From Geminicoccaceae bacterium (GTDB lineage: Bacteria; Pseudomonadota; Alphaproteobacteria; Geminicoccales; Geminicoccaceae), in assembly GCA_025062095.1 (NCBI GenBank), contig JANXAZ010000023.1, positions 1-53,877 on the forward strand: a DNA stretch of 53,877 nucleotides, in the 5' to 3' direction. The position numbers and the translations under genes were made by a program. Of the stretch, positions 6,165 through 12,399 are shown one piece after another. The stretch's first letter is position 1. Every line of letters begins with the position of its first letter. The notes under the pieces were generated by a model. The model did no database searches, was not told the DNA's origin, and saw only the letters and a list, made by a program, of their open reading frames with translations.

Positions 6165-6650
6165 TCACCGCAGCTTCTTGAGCGCCTCGAGGAGATCGCC
6201 CGAGCCCGCTCGCGCCGATGGCGGCTCCGCCGTCCGCGCGGTTCCTTCGACCGTCGCCGGAGCGCTCTCGCGCCGTTCGCCGCAGGATGGTTGGCGCATG
6301 TCCCGAGCGGTGCGCAACTCGGCCACGATGCGCGCCCCCTGGCCGACCATCTCCTCGAGCCTGCGCAGGATCCGACCGCCGCCTTCGACGGTACGGTCGA
6401 GCTCCTGGCGCTGGGCGAGCGCTTTCTTCTCCTGCTCGGCCCAAGAAGCCGCGGCCTCGGCGCCGGCCGCTCTGAGCTCTTCGACCGCCCGTTCGGCGCG
6501 CGCGGTGGCCCGTCCCAGCGCTTCGAGAAAGGCGGCGAGCTCCTCGCGGTCGGCGCGCAGCGCGTGCAGTCGGCGGAAGACGAGCGCGCACCACACCGAA
6601 GTGACGACCAGAAGCGGAACCAACAACAGTTCGATCGCGCTTCCGATCAT
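6165..6650 (-). CDS. DUF6468 flagellar-cluster membrane protein
   Basis: 161 residues. One N-terminal membrane helix (about 4-24, IELLLVPLLVVTSVW) is followed by a basic RRLHALRADRE stretch and a long amphipathic coiled coil (about 35-115). The tail is disordered and ends LLEALKKLR. This layout and its place between fliM and motE match the uncharacterised DUF6468 family of alphaproteobacterial flagellar loci. ATG 6650 lies four bases after the fliM stop. A motor-related or scaffolding role is inferred from context only. Confidence 0.7.
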   Translation of the reverse strand: MIGSAIELLLVPLLVVTSVWCALVFRRLHALRADREELAAFLEALGRATARAERAVEELRAAGAEAAASWAEQEKKALAQRQELDRTVEGGGRILRRLEEMVGQGARIVAELRTARDMRQPSCGERRESAPATVEGTARTAEPPSARAGSGDLLEALKKLR

Positions 6651-6654
6651 CGTC

Positions 6655-7725
6655 TCATTCCTCCCCTTCGCGGCCGAGCCGCCGCTCGATCTTGACCGAG
6701 ACGCGATCCCCCCGGCGGCCGAGCCGGCCCTCGAACAGGGGCAGGTCTCCGCAGCGCAGGATCACCGGGCATTCGGCCGGTACGTCGAGACACAGGGTCG
6801 CGCCGACCTCGAGCGCGAGGATCTCGCGCAAGGGCACCCTCCGCTCGGGGAGGACGGCTTCGAGCTCGATCTCGCTGGCTCGGAGCTCGCGCGCGAGATG
6901 CCGTTCCCAGACGGGGTCGTGCCCGAAACCCTCGCCGGGGAACTCCTGCGCGAGCTCTTCGCGAACGGGCTCGAGGGTGGCCCGCGGCAGGAGCAGCTCG
7001 AGGCGGCCGCCGCGGCCGCCCGCCGCGACGAGCAGCGGACAGAGCACGCAGGCGTCGCTCGCGCGCGCGATCGTGACGAAGCGGGGATCGGTCTCGATCC
7101 GCTCGAAGACGAACTCGACCCGCGCGATCGGGGCGAAGGCAGCGCCGAGTTCGGCGAGCACGGCGCGGATCGGGCGCTCGAGCAGGACCGCCTCGATCTC
7201 GGTGCAGGCCCGCCCGTGCACGGGCGTGCTCGTGCGCAGCGCCCGCCCTCCGAGCAACAGATCGACGACGGTATAGGCCAAGCCGTGATCGACGGTGAGG
7301 AGACCGGAGCGGTCCCAGGGCACGGCCCGGAAGATCGCGATCACCGCCGGGCGCGGCAGGTTCGCGAGATGATCCCCGAACCGCCGCGCGGCGAGCGGCT
7401 CGGCCCGGATCTCCACCGGCTCGGGCAGGACGCGGCGCAGGCTCGCGGGAAGCGCCCGGCTCCAGCGCTCGAGCAGGGCCTCCAGGACCGGCATGCGCGC
7501 GTAGCGCGACGCACCGCCCGCGAGCAGCGCGCGCACACCCCGCGCGGGGCGACCGCCGCGCAGCCGGTCGCGACCGAGGAGGGTGCTGCGCTCGGCGTCG
7601 CTCAAGAGACCCGCTTCGGCGCCGAGGGTCGCGCCCGGCGCCTCCGACGCCGCCTCGCGCCAATCGAGCCCGAGTTCGCCCGTGGCGGCGCCGGAAGCAC
7701 CCTGCACCACGCTCGTCCCGTTCAC
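6655..7725 (-). CDS. fliM: Flagellar motor switch protein FliM
   Basis: FliM joins FliG and FliN in the C-ring and binds phospho-CheY to reverse rotation. About residues 55-260 match the FliM middle domain (YARMPVLEALLERW, IFRAVPWDRSGLLTVDHGLAYTV, LLLGG). The C-terminal 80 residues match the SpoA/FliN-like domain (EVGATLCLDVPAECPVILRCGDLPLFEG). I chose GTG 7725, ten bases after the fliL stop and behind GAGGGG, giving 356 residues; an upstream ATG at 7776 would overlap fliL by 41 bases. The usual N-terminal CheY-binding LSQxEIDALL is not at the start: only a weak LSDAERSTLLG occurs at residues 41-51. Confidence 0.85.
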   Translation of the reverse strand: MNGTSVVQGASGAATGELGLDWREAASEAPGATLGAEAGLLSDAERSTLLGRDRLRGGRPARGVRALLAGGASRYARMPVLEALLERWSRALPASLRRVLPEPVEIRAEPLAARRFGDHLANLPRPAVIAIFRAVPWDRSGLLTVDHGLAYTVVDLLLGGRALRTSTPVHGRACTEIEAVLLERPIRAVLAELGAAFAPIARVEFVFERIETDPRFVTIARASDACVLCPLLVAAGGRGGRLELLLPRATLEPVREELAQEFPGEGFGHDPVWERHLARELRASEIELEAVLPERRVPLREILALEVGATLCLDVPAECPVILRCGDLPLFEGRLGRRGDRVSVKIERRLGREGEE

Positions 7726-7735
7726 CTTCGGCCCC

Positions 7736-8272
7736 TCATTGCACCAAGATTTCTTTGAACAGAACGTCGACGACACGCGCCGGCGCGATCGCTTGATTGA
7801 TGCGCGCCAGCAGTTCTTCCTTGAGCGTCAACATGCCTTGCGAGCCCTCGATCTCTTCGGGCTCCAGGGCACGCAAATAGAGTTGGAACCCGTCCATGAT
7901 CCGTGGCGTGAACTGTTTGACCTGTTCGGCGGTGCGGGCATCGGCGACCTCGAGTGCGACCTTCAGGCGCAAAAAGCGCGTCCGTTTGCTCTGCGATTTC
8001 AAATTGACGAGGATGTCGGGAAGATCGACGAAGGCGACTTGCGGTGGCGGAGGATTCGCCTCCGGCCGGTGATTCTTGTCCGCTTCGCTCTGGGCCGCGG
8101 GCGCGGCGGCCTCGCCCCGTTTGCCGAACAACCCCGCGAACCACGCTGCGGTCGCACCGCCGCCCAGAAGAACGAACAGCGCCGCGGCCGCGAGGACGAG
8201 CTTCGAACGCCCGCCCTTGCCGGAGCCGGCCTCGGCCCCTTCTCCCGCCTTTTTCTGGGTGTTCGCCGCCAT
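7736..8272 (-). CDS. fliL: Flagellar basal-body protein FliL
   Basis: 178 residues. A short cytoplasmic tail is followed by one membrane helix (about 25-47), a Pro-rich linker, and the FliL periplasmic domain with FVDLPDILVNLKS and the conserved end ARVVDVLFKEILVQ. FliL rings associate with the stator and help maintain torque. First gene of the leftward fliL-fliM-DUF6468-motE unit, divergent from flgF over 230 bases. Full length and strongly supported. Confidence 0.9.
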   Translation of the reverse strand: MAANTQKKAGEGAEAGSGKGGRSKLVLAAAALFVLLGGGATAAWFAGLFGKRGEAAAPAAQSEADKNHRPEANPPPPQVAFVDLPDILVNLKSQSKRTRFLRLKVALEVADARTAEQVKQFTPRIMDGFQLYLRALEPEEIEGSQGMLTLKEELLARINQAIAPARVVDVLFKEILVQ

Positions 8273-8459
8273 CTCCAGCCTCGCTCATGCCTCGGGCGGG
8301 CGACCGCACCCGCCGCGCGCCTTTCTTAGCCTCCGGCTGGTTAGCGAAAGGTTGACGCGGCGCGCGCGTTCCCGGGCGGCAATTCGTGCCGGGCAAGCCC
8401 TGCCGGGATCACGGCGGCGCATCCCGGCGCAGCCGTTCCGAGCGGCGTTCCGGCGCGTT

Positions 8460-8474
8460 TGGCACCGCGGTTGC
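8460..8474 (+). promoter_or_regulatory. Sigma-54 (-24/-12) promoter of flgFGAH
   Basis: TGGCAC (8460-8465), five bases, then TTGC (8471-8474) fits the RpoN consensus TGGCAC-N5-TTGC exactly, with GG at -24 and GC at -12 correctly spaced. Transcription should start about 12 bases downstream, near 8486. The flgF ribosome site (GGAGGTGAGGG, about 8488-8498) and ATG 8503 follow directly, giving a very short leader. Sigma-54 control of rod, ring and hook genes is well known in several bacteria and requires an AAA+ activator such as FlbD or FleQ, which is not in this window. Confidence 0.8.
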
Positions 8475-8502
8475 GAGAACGGCCGGCGGAGGTGAGGGTC
8501 CG

Positions 8503-9225
8503 ATGGACACGACGTCGTACGTCGCCTTGAGCCGACAGGTGGCGCTCGAGCGGGCGATGACGGTCATCGCCAACAATCTCGCCAATCTCGGCACGACCGG
8601 GTTCAAGGCCGAGCGGATGCTCTTCGCGACCGTGCTCGAGCGGGCGGGCGAGCCGGGTCGGGTGGCCTTCGTCCAAGACGTCGCCACCGTGCGCGACGAC
8701 ACGCAGGGTGCGCTGCGCGTCACCGGCGGACCGCTCGATCTCGCCATTCAGGGCGAGGGTTTCTTCACCGTGCGCACCGCGGCCGGCGAGCGCTACACCC
8801 GCGCCGGACAGCTGCGCCGCGACGCCTCGGGGGCGCTCGTCACCGCCCTCGGACACGAGCTCCTCGACGAAGGCGGCCAGCCCGTCGTCCTGCCGCCCGA
8901 AGAGACGGCACCGCGCATCGCCGCCGACGGCACGATCAGCGGCACGAGCGGCGTGCTCGGGCGGATCCGCCTCGTGCGTTTCGCCGATCCCGCCTCCCTG
9001 AGGCTCGAGGGCGAGGGACTTTACGCGAGCGAGGCGCCCCCGATTCCCGGAGCGCCCGGGGCGATCGTCCAAGGCGCCCTCGAAGAATCGAACGTCAAAG
9101 GCGTGCTCGAGCTCGCCCGCATGATCGAGGTCACGCGCGCCTTCGAAGGAACCCAGAAGATGCTCGAGACCCACCACGAACTCGTCCGCAAGGCGATCGA
9201 GCGGATCGCCGACACGACGGCCTGA
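8503..9225 (+). CDS. flgF: Flagellar proximal rod protein FlgF
   Basis: 240 residues. The N-terminal rod motif ANNLANLGTTGFKAE and the C-terminal EESNVKGVLELARMIEVTRAFEG-type helix are hallmarks of rod/hook proteins, with LDLAIQGEGFFTV between. FlgF forms part of the proximal rod and is exported by the flagellar type III apparatus. ATG 8503 has a strong GGAGGTGAGGG site. First gene of the flgF-flgG-flgA-flgH unit under the sigma-54 promoter. Confidence 0.93.
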   Translation: MDTTSYVALSRQVALERAMTVIANNLANLGTTGFKAERMLFATVLERAGEPGRVAFVQDVATVRDDTQGALRVTGGPLDLAIQGEGFFTVRTAAGERYTRAGQLRRDASGALVTALGHELLDEGGQPVVLPPEETAPRIAADGTISGTSGVLGRIRLVRFADPASLRLEGEGLYASEAPPIPGAPGAIVQGALEESNVKGVLELARMIEVTRAFEGTQKMLETHHELVRKAIERIADTTA

Positions 9226-9268
9226 TCGGCCGCACGAGCGGAGCCGAACCGAGGAGGATGAGCCCGCG

Positions 9269-10054
9269 ATGCGATCGCTCGCCGTAGCCGCGACCGGCAT
9301 GCTGGCCCAACAGCTCGCCGTCGAAGTCATCTCCAACAACATCGCCAACATGACGACCACCGGCTTCAAGCGCGCGCGGCCGGAGTTCCAGGATCTCCTC
9401 TATCAGAGCGAGCGGCGCTCGGGTGCCGCGACCTCCGACGCCGGCACGCTCGTGCCCGCGGGCGTGCAGCTCGGCCTCGGGGTCAAGGCCGCGGCCGTGT
9501 ACCGCATCCACGACCAGGGCAGTCTCGTGAGCACCGAGAACCGCCTCGACCTCGCGATCCAGGGCGCGGGTTTCTTCGTGGTCGAAACCCCGGAGGGCGA
9601 GCCGGCCTACACCCGCTCGGGCAATTTCCAGCTCAGTCCGCAAGGGATCGTGGTCACGCCGGACGGCTATCCGGTGAGCCCCGGCATCACCATTCCGGCC
9701 GAAGCGATCGAGGTGGCGATCAGCCCCACGGGGATCGTCTCGGTCAAGCTCCCGGGGCAGACGAACATGGTCCAGGTGGGCCAGCTGCAGCTGGCCACCT
9801 TCGTCAACCCGGCCGGGCTCGAGGCGATCGGCTCCAACCTCTTCCTCGAGACCGAGGCCTCGGGTCCGGCGATCACCGGCACCCCCGGCGCGGAGGGTTT
9901 CGGGACCGTGCTCCAGGGCTTTCTCGAGAGCTCGAACGTCAACGCCGTCCACGAGATCACCCAGCTCATCACCGCCCAGCGGGCCTACGACATGAACTCC
10001 AAGGTCATCCAGGCCTCCGACGAGATGATGAGCACCGTCACCCGGTTGCGCTGA
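9269..10054 (+). CDS. flgG: Flagellar distal rod protein FlgG
   Basis: 261 residues, the usual FlgG length. It begins MRSLAVAATGMLAQQ, has the N-terminal SNNIANMTTTGFKRA motif, the central LDLAIQGAGFFVV core, and the C-terminal ESSNVNAVHEITQLITAQRAYDMNSKV helix that packs the rod. It assembles the distal rod through the P and L rings. ATG 9269 follows flgF by 43 bases, with GAGGATGAG upstream. Strong identification. Confidence 0.96.
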   Translation: MRSLAVAATGMLAQQLAVEVISNNIANMTTTGFKRARPEFQDLLYQSERRSGAATSDAGTLVPAGVQLGLGVKAAAVYRIHDQGSLVSTENRLDLAIQGAGFFVVETPEGEPAYTRSGNFQLSPQGIVVTPDGYPVSPGITIPAEAIEVAISPTGIVSVKLPGQTNMVQVGQLQLATFVNPAGLEAIGSNLFLETEASGPAITGTPGAEGFGTVLQGFLESSNVNAVHEITQLITAQRAYDMNSKVIQASDEMMSTVTRLR

Positions 10055-10062
10055 GGACCGCC

Positions 10063-10806
10063 GTGCGCCCTCGCCCGCTCGCCTTCCTCGCCGTCGTCCT
10101 GAGCGCGCTCGGCGCCGCCGCGTCTTCGGCGGCCGAGCTCGTGCTCGCCGCCCGCGAGCCCCTCGCGCGCGGTGCGCTCGTCGCCCTTCTCGAGGGGGCG
10201 CTGCCCCCGGCGGGAGAGGGTCGGCGCCTGGTCCCGGTGGTGACGTCCCCGGCGCTTCCGCTCGCCAATCCGGCCGACCGGCCGGTCACGGTCGCGCTCG
10301 ACGGCCTGATCGTCGACGAAGCGCGACGACGGTTCCGGGGCGAGCTCGTCGTCCGGATCGAGGGCCGGGTGACGGGGGCGGTCCCGATCGAGGGACGGCT
10401 GCAGGCCCTGGTCGCGGTGCCGGTGCCGAGCCGACCCGTGCGCGAGGGCGAGCTCCTCGAACCCGCCGCGCTCGCCACCGCTTGGGTCGCGGAAGACGCG
10501 GTCCGCCCCGAGGTCCTGCTCGATCCCGCTTCCGCAATCGGGCGCGAGGCGGCGCGGCCCCTGCCGGCCGGGCGACCGATCCGCGAGAGCGATCTCCGCG
10601 CCCCGCGCGCGGTGCGCAAAGGCGAGGTCGTCACCCTCGTCTACGCGCGGGGTCCGATCGAGATCGTCACCCTCGGCCGGGCGCTCGTCGACGCCGGGCG
10701 CGGCGAGCCCGTGCGCGCGGTCAATCTGGCGAGCGAACGGCCGGTGCGCGGCATCGCGGTCGACCGCAAGCTCGTGCGCGTCGGGCCCGTGGAGAACCTG
10801 CCGTGA
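10063..10806 (+). CDS. flgA: Flagellar P-ring assembly chaperone FlgA
   Basis: 247 residues from GTG 10063, eight bases after flgG. A Sec signal peptide (about 1-24, ending ASSAAE) directs it to the periplasm. The C-terminal half is an SAF/ChapFlgA domain (VPVPSRPVREGELLE, EAARPLPAGRPIRESDLRAPRAVRKGEVV). FlgA helps FlgI form the P ring. Its stop shares bases with the flgH start. The partner gene flgI is not in the window. Confidence 0.9.
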   Translation: MRPRPLAFLAVVLSALGAAASSAAELVLAAREPLARGALVALLEGALPPAGEGRRLVPVVTSPALPLANPADRPVTVALDGLIVDEARRRFRGELVVRIEGRVTGAVPIEGRLQALVAVPVPSRPVREGELLEPAALATAWVAEDAVRPEVLLDPASAIGREAARPLPAGRPIRESDLRAPRAVRKGEVVTLVYARGPIEIVTLGRALVDAGRGEPVRAVNLASERPVRGIAVDRKLVRVGPVENLP

Positions 10807-11576
10807 CCCGCTCGGGCGGACGGACGACGGTGCGGCCGGTCGCGGCCCTCCTCGTCTTGTCGGCCGCGCTCGCGAGCTCGGGCTGCACGATCGGCGAACG
10901 GCTCGCCGAAGTCGGCCGAGCCCCCAAGCTCGAGCGTCCGGGCGATCCCACCGAACGGCCGGGGTGGCGGCCGGTGCGCATGCCCATGCCCGAGCCCGAA
11001 CCGCAGATCGCCGCCGGGCCGAATTCGCTCTGGCGCTCGGGAGCGCGCGGCTTCTTCCGCGACCAGCGCGCGCGCCGGGTGGGCGACATCCTCACGATCA
11101 ACGTCACGATCAACGACAAGGCGGAGCTCTCGAACACGAGCCGACGCTCGCGCTCCAACCGCGACCGGTTCGGCCTTCCGAACTTCTTCGGCCTCGAGAA
11201 CAAGCTGCCCAAGGTCTTGCCCGCCCCGATCGATCCCGCGAGCCTGGTGGATGCCGACAGCTCGATGCTCAACCGCGGCCTGGGCGAGACCGAACGCGAG
11301 GAGACGATCCGGCTCGACGTCGCCGCCGTGGTCACCCAAGTGCTTCCCAACGGCAATCTCGTCGTCGAGGGCCGGCAAGAAGTGCGCGTGAACTTCGAGG
11401 TGCGCGAGGTGGTGATCGCCGGTGTCGTGCGCCCCGAAGACATCACCCCCAAGAACACGGTGTCGCACGACAGGATCGCCGAGCTCCGGGTTTCCTACGG
11501 CGGTCGCGGCCAGCTCACCGACGTCCAGCAGCCGCGCTACGGCGCCCAGGTCCTCGACATCCTCCTGCCCTACTGA
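10803..11576 (+). CDS. flgH: Flagellar L-ring lipoprotein FlgH
   Basis: 257 residues from GTG 10803, overlapping the flgA stop (GTGA). A lipoprotein signal ends at the lipobox ASSGC (about residue 25). The L-ring domain carries [25 protein letters not shown], a conserved [11 protein letters not shown] segment, and the C-terminal [26 protein letters not shown]. FlgH forms the outer-membrane bushing around the rod. Last gene of the sigma-54-driven unit. Confidence 0.94.
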
Positions 11577-11691
11577 GCCTCGGGGCGTCGCCGGCAACTT
11601 TCGCCTCGGCGCGGCCCGAGGGCGGTGCCGGCCGGTCCGACGCGCACGGGCGATCGGAACGCCGTCCGCGGCGGGGCTTTCGTCCCGCGCG

Positions 11692-12399
11692 TCACTCGCG
11701 CGCCGGCCGCCCGAGCCCGCTCAGACCGGGGATCCAGGAGACGAAACCGCGCAGACGACCGGCGAAACGGCCGATGTTGAGCGCGTCCTCGATCCGCCGG
11801 TCCAAAAAGGCCCAGGTCGCGCGGCAGCCCTCGCTCTCGTCCTCGAGCCAGAACAGCGTGGTCGAGAGCAGCACGGCGGCGAGCGTGGCCCGGCGGGTGT
11901 AATAATCGAGGCCGGAATCGGCCTCCGGCGGGAGGCCGACCGCCTGCCAGATGCGATCGAGCGTGGTCCAGAAGGCTTTGCCCGCCTCGAGCCAGTTCCC
12001 CGGCAGGCCGCGGGCGGCGAGCGCCCGCCGCACCGCCTCCCGGTGCGGGGCCAGGGCCTCGAGCCGGGCGCGTACGAGCCGCGCGATGCGCCGGCGTACC
12101 GGGAGGCGCTGGAGCTCCTCGGCCGGACAGGCCTCCAACATCTTGCGATCGGCCCAGTCGTCGAGCCAGGCGAGGAGACTGTCGCCGCCCTGCGGGAAGA
12201 GCCGGCGCGCCGTCGCCCGATCGATCCCGGCGTCGTCGGCTCCCGCCCGCAGCGCTCGATCGGACCAACCGTCGAAGGCGACGTGCGCGAGCGCCGCCTC
12301 CAAGATCCGATCGCGTTGTTCCCGGCGCGCGCGCAACGCTTCTCCGTCCATGGCTCCTCCGCGGGCCCGTCCCGGTTCCCGAGCGTCGATCTTCGCCAT
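11692..12399 (-). CDS. COQ9 family protein (ubiquinone biosynthesis accessory)
   Basis: 235 residues. The N-terminal helices ([25 protein letters not shown]) give a TetR-like fold, and the C-terminal half ([48 protein letters not shown]) matches COQ9. COQ9 is a lipid-binding partner of the COQ7 hydroxylase in mitochondria; the bacterial role in ubiquinone synthesis is inferred from the family. I chose ATG 12399 because GGAGG lies seven bases upstream; ATG 12351 has a site only three bases away. Monocistronic, converging on flgH and divergent from rpsU, an arrangement I recall from other alphaproteobacteria. Confidence 0.85.

Follow-up and report, generated by a model that had tools for sequence, protein, structure and literature searches.

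Two divergent flagellar gene units meet at an intergenic region in the 53,877-base stretch of DNA analysed here (the window), and upstream of one of them, which begins with flgF, stands an exact match to the sigma-54 consensus. The locus raises the question of whether this match is a promoter, which regulator would act on it, and whether the two units fall into different regulatory classes. In Caulobacter, CtrA drives the early flagellar genes, and FlbD, FliX and RpoN drive the rod, ring, hook and flagellin genes via ftr sites (PMC3930126, PMC3096577, PMC7064773, PMC6180460). Judged by its sequence context, 8460-8474 very probably holds the -24/-12 element of an FlbD/FliX-type class III flagellar promoter.

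Results

Genes on both sides of the intergenic region

The region lies between a rod and ring gene unit and a unit that opens with fliL:

6165 to 6650, - strand, DUF6468 protein of the fliL-fliM unit (PF20072)
6655 to 7776, - strand, fliM, motor switch (PF02154, PF01052; start as called, the true start may be further in)
7736 to 8272, - strand, fliL, first gene of the divergent unit (PF03748, 78.8 bits, cut-off 24.6)
8503 to 9225, + strand, flgF, proximal rod protein (TIGR02490, 197.5 bits, cut-off 178.5)
9269 to 10054, + strand, flgG, distal rod protein (TIGR02488, 367.2 bits, cut-off 252.75)
10063 to 10806, + strand, flgA, P-ring chaperone (TIGR03170, 102.2 bits, cut-off 54.65)
10803 to 11576, + strand, flgH, L-ring protein (NF001305, 310.2 bits, cut-off 255)

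The nearest FlgF relatives, at 69-74% identity, come from genomes of uncultured organisms, titled Geminicoccaceae in two cases and Alphaproteobacteria in one. A scan of 8200-12000 for housekeeping promoters of the E. coli type, which may miss alphaproteobacterial promoters, returned none, and the three terminator-like matches in the same interval (1.5 expected) all lie within flgF and flgG. No FlgE was found in the window genome by a search through the shared Flg_bbr_C domain only, and fliF was likewise not found (PF01514), the genome being listed as 99.57% complete. The contig carrying fliN, flbD and flhA (C78) opens at base 1 inside an open ORF, so we read the missing fliF as probably an assembly gap at that contig edge.

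An exact sigma-54 element precedes flgF

Two features lie directly upstream of the flgF start:

8460 to 8474, + strand, sigma-54 -24/-12 element TGGCACCGCGGTTGC of the flgFGAH operon, exact TGGCAC-N5-TTGC
8488 to 8492, + strand, Shine-Dalgarno-like GGAGG of flgF, read from the sequence and inside the predicted leader

The initial annotation had described a perfect RpoN consensus at this position, and the element is indeed the single exact match in the window; shuffled windows held 0.05 matches on average, with at least one in 5 of 100 shuffles. Allowing two mismatches gave 22 matches in the window against 34 expected, so weaker matches to the motif carry no meaning. Across the window genome (3.30 Mb, 143 contigs), the exact motif occurs twice, against three times for its reversed control, the second occurrence (C99:62652) falling within a mechanically called ORF of 1,009 codons. 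Exactness alone is therefore not significant, and what counts is position and conservation. Exact-motif counts were dropped as evidence, both for this motif and for the palindrome described below, since neither exceeded its reversed control genome-wide. As to position, the -12 C at 8474 is 28 bases 5′ of the flgF ATG (8503), and none of 200 shuffles of the 250 bases 5′ of flgF scored as high as this site. A -24/-12 element 5′ of a late flagellar operon, the feature that marks the class of FlbD/FliX sigma-54 promoters, is thus found at flgF.

Assuming that transcription starts near 8486, 12 bases after the -12 element, the flgF leader would be about 17 nt long. This had been called unusually short, which the comparison with relatives does not support: the gap from the -12 element to the start codon is 26-35 bases in 8 of the 16 site-bearing relatives introduced below, half of them thus having similar gaps, and 47-89 bases in the other 8. 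In the fla2 system of R. sphaeroides, transcription starts 12-33 bases from the start codon (PMC6180460).

The flgF site occurs together with FliX and upstream palindromes

Among 80 relative loci, 55 (L024-L077 and L090) were taken as alphaproteobacterial by record title, L045 being titled Proteobacteria, and 54 were testable; L050, with only 78 bases upstream, was left uncounted. A sigma-54 score of at least 19 (of 20.8), a threshold set after the scores had been seen and with 18.6 (L049) the next lower value, was reached before flgF in 16 of the 54, at 26-89 bases 5′ of the flgF start, and 38 are without such a site. We searched for FliX in 50 relative genomes, 49 of them testable, and found it in 15 of 16 site-bearing and 0 of 33 site-less relatives, counts that kinship inflates, since many site-less relatives carry names of the Rhodobacterales or Hyphomonas type and the co-occurrence therefore represents few independent events. 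The one exception, L029, has the flgF site without a FliX match. A palindrome of at least 9/10 stands within 260 bases upstream in 13 of the 16 site-bearing relatives versus 1 of the 38 site-less ones; at L025, L032 and L064 the site is present and palindromes reach 7-8/10 only.

The 25 loci left out, which belong to other classes or phyla by title, were scored afterwards with the same weights. Seven reach 19, of which L083 alone also carries a 9/10 palindrome. A -24/-12 site upstream of flgF hence occurs beyond the class, and the palindrome is seen among the 25 only at L083. This locus, labelled Terriglobia, resembles the alphaproteobacterial ones, its flgF being preceded by a divergent fliL, a palindrome of 9/10 and a sigma-54 site that is perfect, and it may be a misbinned alphaproteobacterial relative.

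Paired palindromes are candidate enhancers

Upstream of the sigma-54 element, two palindromes overlap by one base:

8377 to 8391, + strand, perfect palindrome CGGCA-N5-TGCCG, proposed distal half of an FlbD (ftr-type) enhancer
8391 to 8405, + strand, overlapping near-palindrome GGGCAAGCCCTGCCG (9/10), proposed proximal FlbD site

They lie 68 and 54 bases 5′ of the -24 element, and a 10/10 palindrome, the test applied to 8377-8391, was reached in 1 of 1000 shuffles. The likeness to Caulobacter ftr is one of paired upstream position; in Caulobacter, the sites bound by FlbD have been mapped in other work (named in PMC12421884). On its own, CGGCA-N5-TGCCG is not enriched in the genome (16 exact matches, 28 for the reversed control). 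Fifteen of the 16 exact palindromes were examined, and only those at flgF, flgI and fliC have both another near-copy no more than 60 bases away and a strong sigma-54 site, scoring at least 19, no more than 160 bases away. Before fliC stand two palindromes of 9-10/10 and a sigma-54-like site scoring 19.5 of 20.8, and before flgI three palindromes of 9-10/10 and a site scoring 19.6. At flgI, both the site and the palindromes run into the beginning of the called fliX ORF; since Pfam matches this ORF only from residue 59, the first 58 residues being without a match, the true fliX start may be further in.

The genome encodes RpoN, an FlbD-like activator, FliX and CtrA

A genome without rpoN had been named in advance as grounds for rejecting the promoter, which does not apply here: RpoN is encoded (PF04552, 211.3 bits), in a frame containing ARRTVAKYRE, which we take to be the RpoN box. 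The sigma-54 activator domain has six matches in the genome, four of them strong, and one of the four is an FlbD-like protein encoded between fliN and flhA. Among the NCBIfam families it matches FlbD best, along almost its whole length, at 694.7 bits and so below the cut-off of 750. The ATPase carries a Walker A motif and GAFTGA, the significance of which for such activators is described in PMC12421884. By eye, the receiver appears to be without the usual acidic pair and lysine, and the Caulobacter FlbD receiver is likewise said to be without key residues (PMC3096577). FliX is recognised by Pfam (PF10768, 96.7 bits, cut-off 25) and falls below its NCBIfam equivalog cut-off (82.4 of 175); its gene is divergent from flgI. 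CtrA is encoded as well (NF045991, 378.3 bits, cut-off 350), next to a fliI-like ORF in which FliI was recognised by eye. The genome check proposed by the initial annotation, for FlbD/FleQ activators and upstream enhancer sites, has thus turned up both an FlbD-like protein and enhancer-like palindromes.

Two further genes were seen in the course of this search. A PEP-CTERM-type sigma-54 response regulator on C69 (L018:9347-12726, - strand) has a GAF-domain kinase upstream, so that the genome may contain an EPS or sorting system. On C78, an FlhF-like GTPase gene, below the NCBIfam cut-off, follows flhA (L017:4543-5472, + strand); polar flagellates of the Alphaproteobacteria include a group described as lacking FlhF/FlhG (PMC7064773).

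Across the class, a palindrome and sigma-54 composite is linked to late flagellar genes

A composite pattern was set after the relatives had been seen: CGGCA-N5-TGCCG, then 45-75 bases, then TGGCAC-N6-TGC. Of 385 class genomes, 51 contain it, with 58 matches in all, and its reversed control gave 4. FliX is present in 49 of the 51 composite-bearing versus 159 of the 334 composite-less genomes, which means that 159 FliX-bearing genomes are without the strict composite. The downstream gene was read at 30 of the 58 loci, one being the window's own, and at 24 it exceeds the Pfam cut-off for a flagellar protein: 12 FlgF, 4 FlgE (the FlgF/FlgE split being made by size and sequence reading), 5 flagellins, 2 FliK and 1 rod-binding protein. 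The last of these, at L150, raised the count from 23 to 24 of 30; there the longest-ORF rule gave the wrong ORF, and the nearer one was sought post hoc. With a flagellar gene downstream at 24 of the 30 loci, we read the composite as a mark of late flagellar genes, and the window site as one instance of it.

The six loci that are non-flagellar by Pfam are L137, L139, L142, L151, L162 and L164. At L139 the downstream gene has no family match, and at L162 no plausible downstream gene was found, its genome (G250) having no FliX match. In one genome a GGDEF diguanylate cyclase follows the composite (L137:725-1471, - strand), which suggests a c-di-GMP enzyme within the late flagellar class. The proteins directly after the composite at L142:1596-2315, L151:128-1471 (- strand) and L164:384-1475 (- strand) have a common domain, NPLQH...YR..TGD, of up to 83 aa, with about 39-59% identity over 32-83 residues. 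These proteins, from three genomes, have no Pfam or NCBIfam match and are candidates for an undescribed late flagellar family. At L145 and L146, flagellin genes begin about 205 bases from the -12 element, a gap that implies long leaders.

The divergent fliL unit

No sigma-54 site was found on the fliL strand in 8273-8502, as the initial annotation had held, the best score of 15.5 (of 20.8) being comparable with that of the runner-up sites on the flgF strand (15.6). One candidate for another kind of control lies in the same region:

8341 to 8355, no strand assigned, CtrA-like box TTAG-N7-TTGA, proposed for the fliL promoter (6/8 to TTAA-N7-TTAA)

The box, which matches only 6 of 8 letters of the consensus given in PMC6180460 and PMC4287350, has a p of about 0.013 by shuffling. 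The three nearest relatives have a similar box 116-122 bases upstream of the -24 element (p 0.003-0.043; the distance in the window is 119), but for 7 of the 16 site-bearing relatives the best-scoring box does not stand out from shuffled sequence (p above 0.2). CtrA likely controls fliL, to judge by these features. The suggestion that the two units belong to different classes accordingly stands in part: fliL is without a sigma-54 site and CtrA is encoded, and the box at fliL is weak, if similarly placed in the nearest relatives.

The palindrome pair might in addition be a two-way switch, at which bound FlbD would activate flgF and repress fliL, an addition we regard as rather unlikely. Placed between the two promoters, the pair is 21 bases away from the CtrA-like box, and in Caulobacter ftr4 is the site through which FlbD represses an early gene, fliF (PMC3930126); against this, the pair does not overlap the box.

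Discussion

The window most resembles the class III/IV promoters of Caulobacter crescentus, with a -24/-12 element before rod and ring genes, paired upstream elements, late gene content, and activator and FliX genes in the genome. It differs from that system in having an FlhF-like GTPase gene after flhA and no clear IHF site in 8273-8502, where the best candidate matches 11 of 13 positions, 4 of them free, and overlaps the CtrA-like box. The fliL side is like CtrA class II promoters (Caulobacter; R. sphaeroides fliL2p) in that fliL opens an early unit, CtrA is encoded and a box resembling TTAA-N7-TTAA, here 6/8 only, lies between the divergent genes. In R. sphaeroides, however, one CtrA site serves both fliL2 and fliF2 (PMC6180460), whereas here a sigma-54 site stands before the partner, flgF. 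The FlrC/FleR/FlgR-type hierarchies of other polar flagellates likewise place rod genes under sigma-54 control once the export gate is assembled, but those use kinase-response regulator pairs (PMC7064773) in place of an FlbD-like protein with FliX. The picture from Methylosinus sporium 5, another alphaproteobacterium, counts against a sigma-54 reading of flgF: mapped starts there place an unnamed motif before flgF and other flagellar genes, and the RpoN motifs told of are those of nitrogen genes (PMC12403871).

It is very improbable that the element is a chance match and that flgF is read from a CtrA or housekeeping promoter, as in Rhodobacterales. The exact motif is indeed at chance level genome-wide, 38 of the 54 testable relatives are without the site, and R. 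sphaeroides fla2 uses CtrA, its RpoN proteins having no role by the authors' unpublished results (PMC6180460). Yet the position of the site is conserved in 16 relatives, the paired palindromes 5′ of it argue against chance, the same composite precedes flagellar genes across the class, and the housekeeping scan, which may miss alphaproteobacterial promoters, was empty. A start of flgF at GTG 8386, where its mechanical ORF opens, would place the element within coding sequence and is scarcely credible, since the codon aligned to 8503 is ATG in 48 of the 55 relatives and the GGAGG at 8488-8492 fits a start at 8503.

If the promoter is of the sigma-54 type, its activator could be one other than the FlbD-like protein, either the C69 regulator, which exceeds the PEP-CTERM response regulator cut-off (TIGR02915, 653.9 bits, cut-off 502.6), or one of two on C56 without family assignment. 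The six activator-domain matches, four of them strong, leave room for this, but we consider it improbable: the FlbD-like gene sits among flagellar genes, FliX and the flgF site co-occur in relatives, and among the 15 examined palindromes a pair with a strong sigma-54 site was found at flagellar promoters only. A sigma-54 promoter for flgFGAH, as the initial annotation had proposed, is supported by the conservation of the site, RpoN, the FlbD-like activator, FliX and the upstream palindromes.

We therefore favour the FlbD/FliX-type promoter and propose that RpoN-RNA polymerase would wait at 8460-8474 in a closed complex and that the FlbD-type AAA+ activator, presumably gated by FliX, would bind the palindromes at 8377-8405, about 55-70 bases upstream. 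The complex would open once the early flagellar base is built, with transcription starting near 8486, so that flgF, flgG, flgA and flgH (rod, P-ring chaperone and L-ring) would be made late. The fliL-fliM genes would form an early class II unit without a sigma-54 site, probably driven by CtrA. The elements, their conservation, the RpoN, FlbD-like, FliX and CtrA genes, and the class-wide linkage to late flagellar genes are found directly. The marked site looks like a real conserved switch for late rod and ring genes and, since the control scheme is already known from Caulobacter, is mostly ordinary.

We tentatively consider it possible that the composite addresses FlbD-controlled late flagellar genes throughout the class, with enough specificity to name new ones such as those of the NPLQH proteins, and that the palindrome pair in the window may also switch off fliL. 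No paper on a class-wide FlbD motif was found by title among the literature matches listed, in which older work is thinly covered, and we claim no priority; nor did a paper on flagellar control in the Geminicoccaceae group appear by title among the matches listed. As a sequence rule, the composite allows late flagellar genes to be located throughout the class with no need for experiments. For the organism, the analysis places the early-to-late flagellar switch of Caulobacter in a Geminicoccaceae-like genome, and in the relatives examined the absence of the site tracks the absence of FliX, a pointer to the lineages in which the hierarchy may have undergone rewiring.
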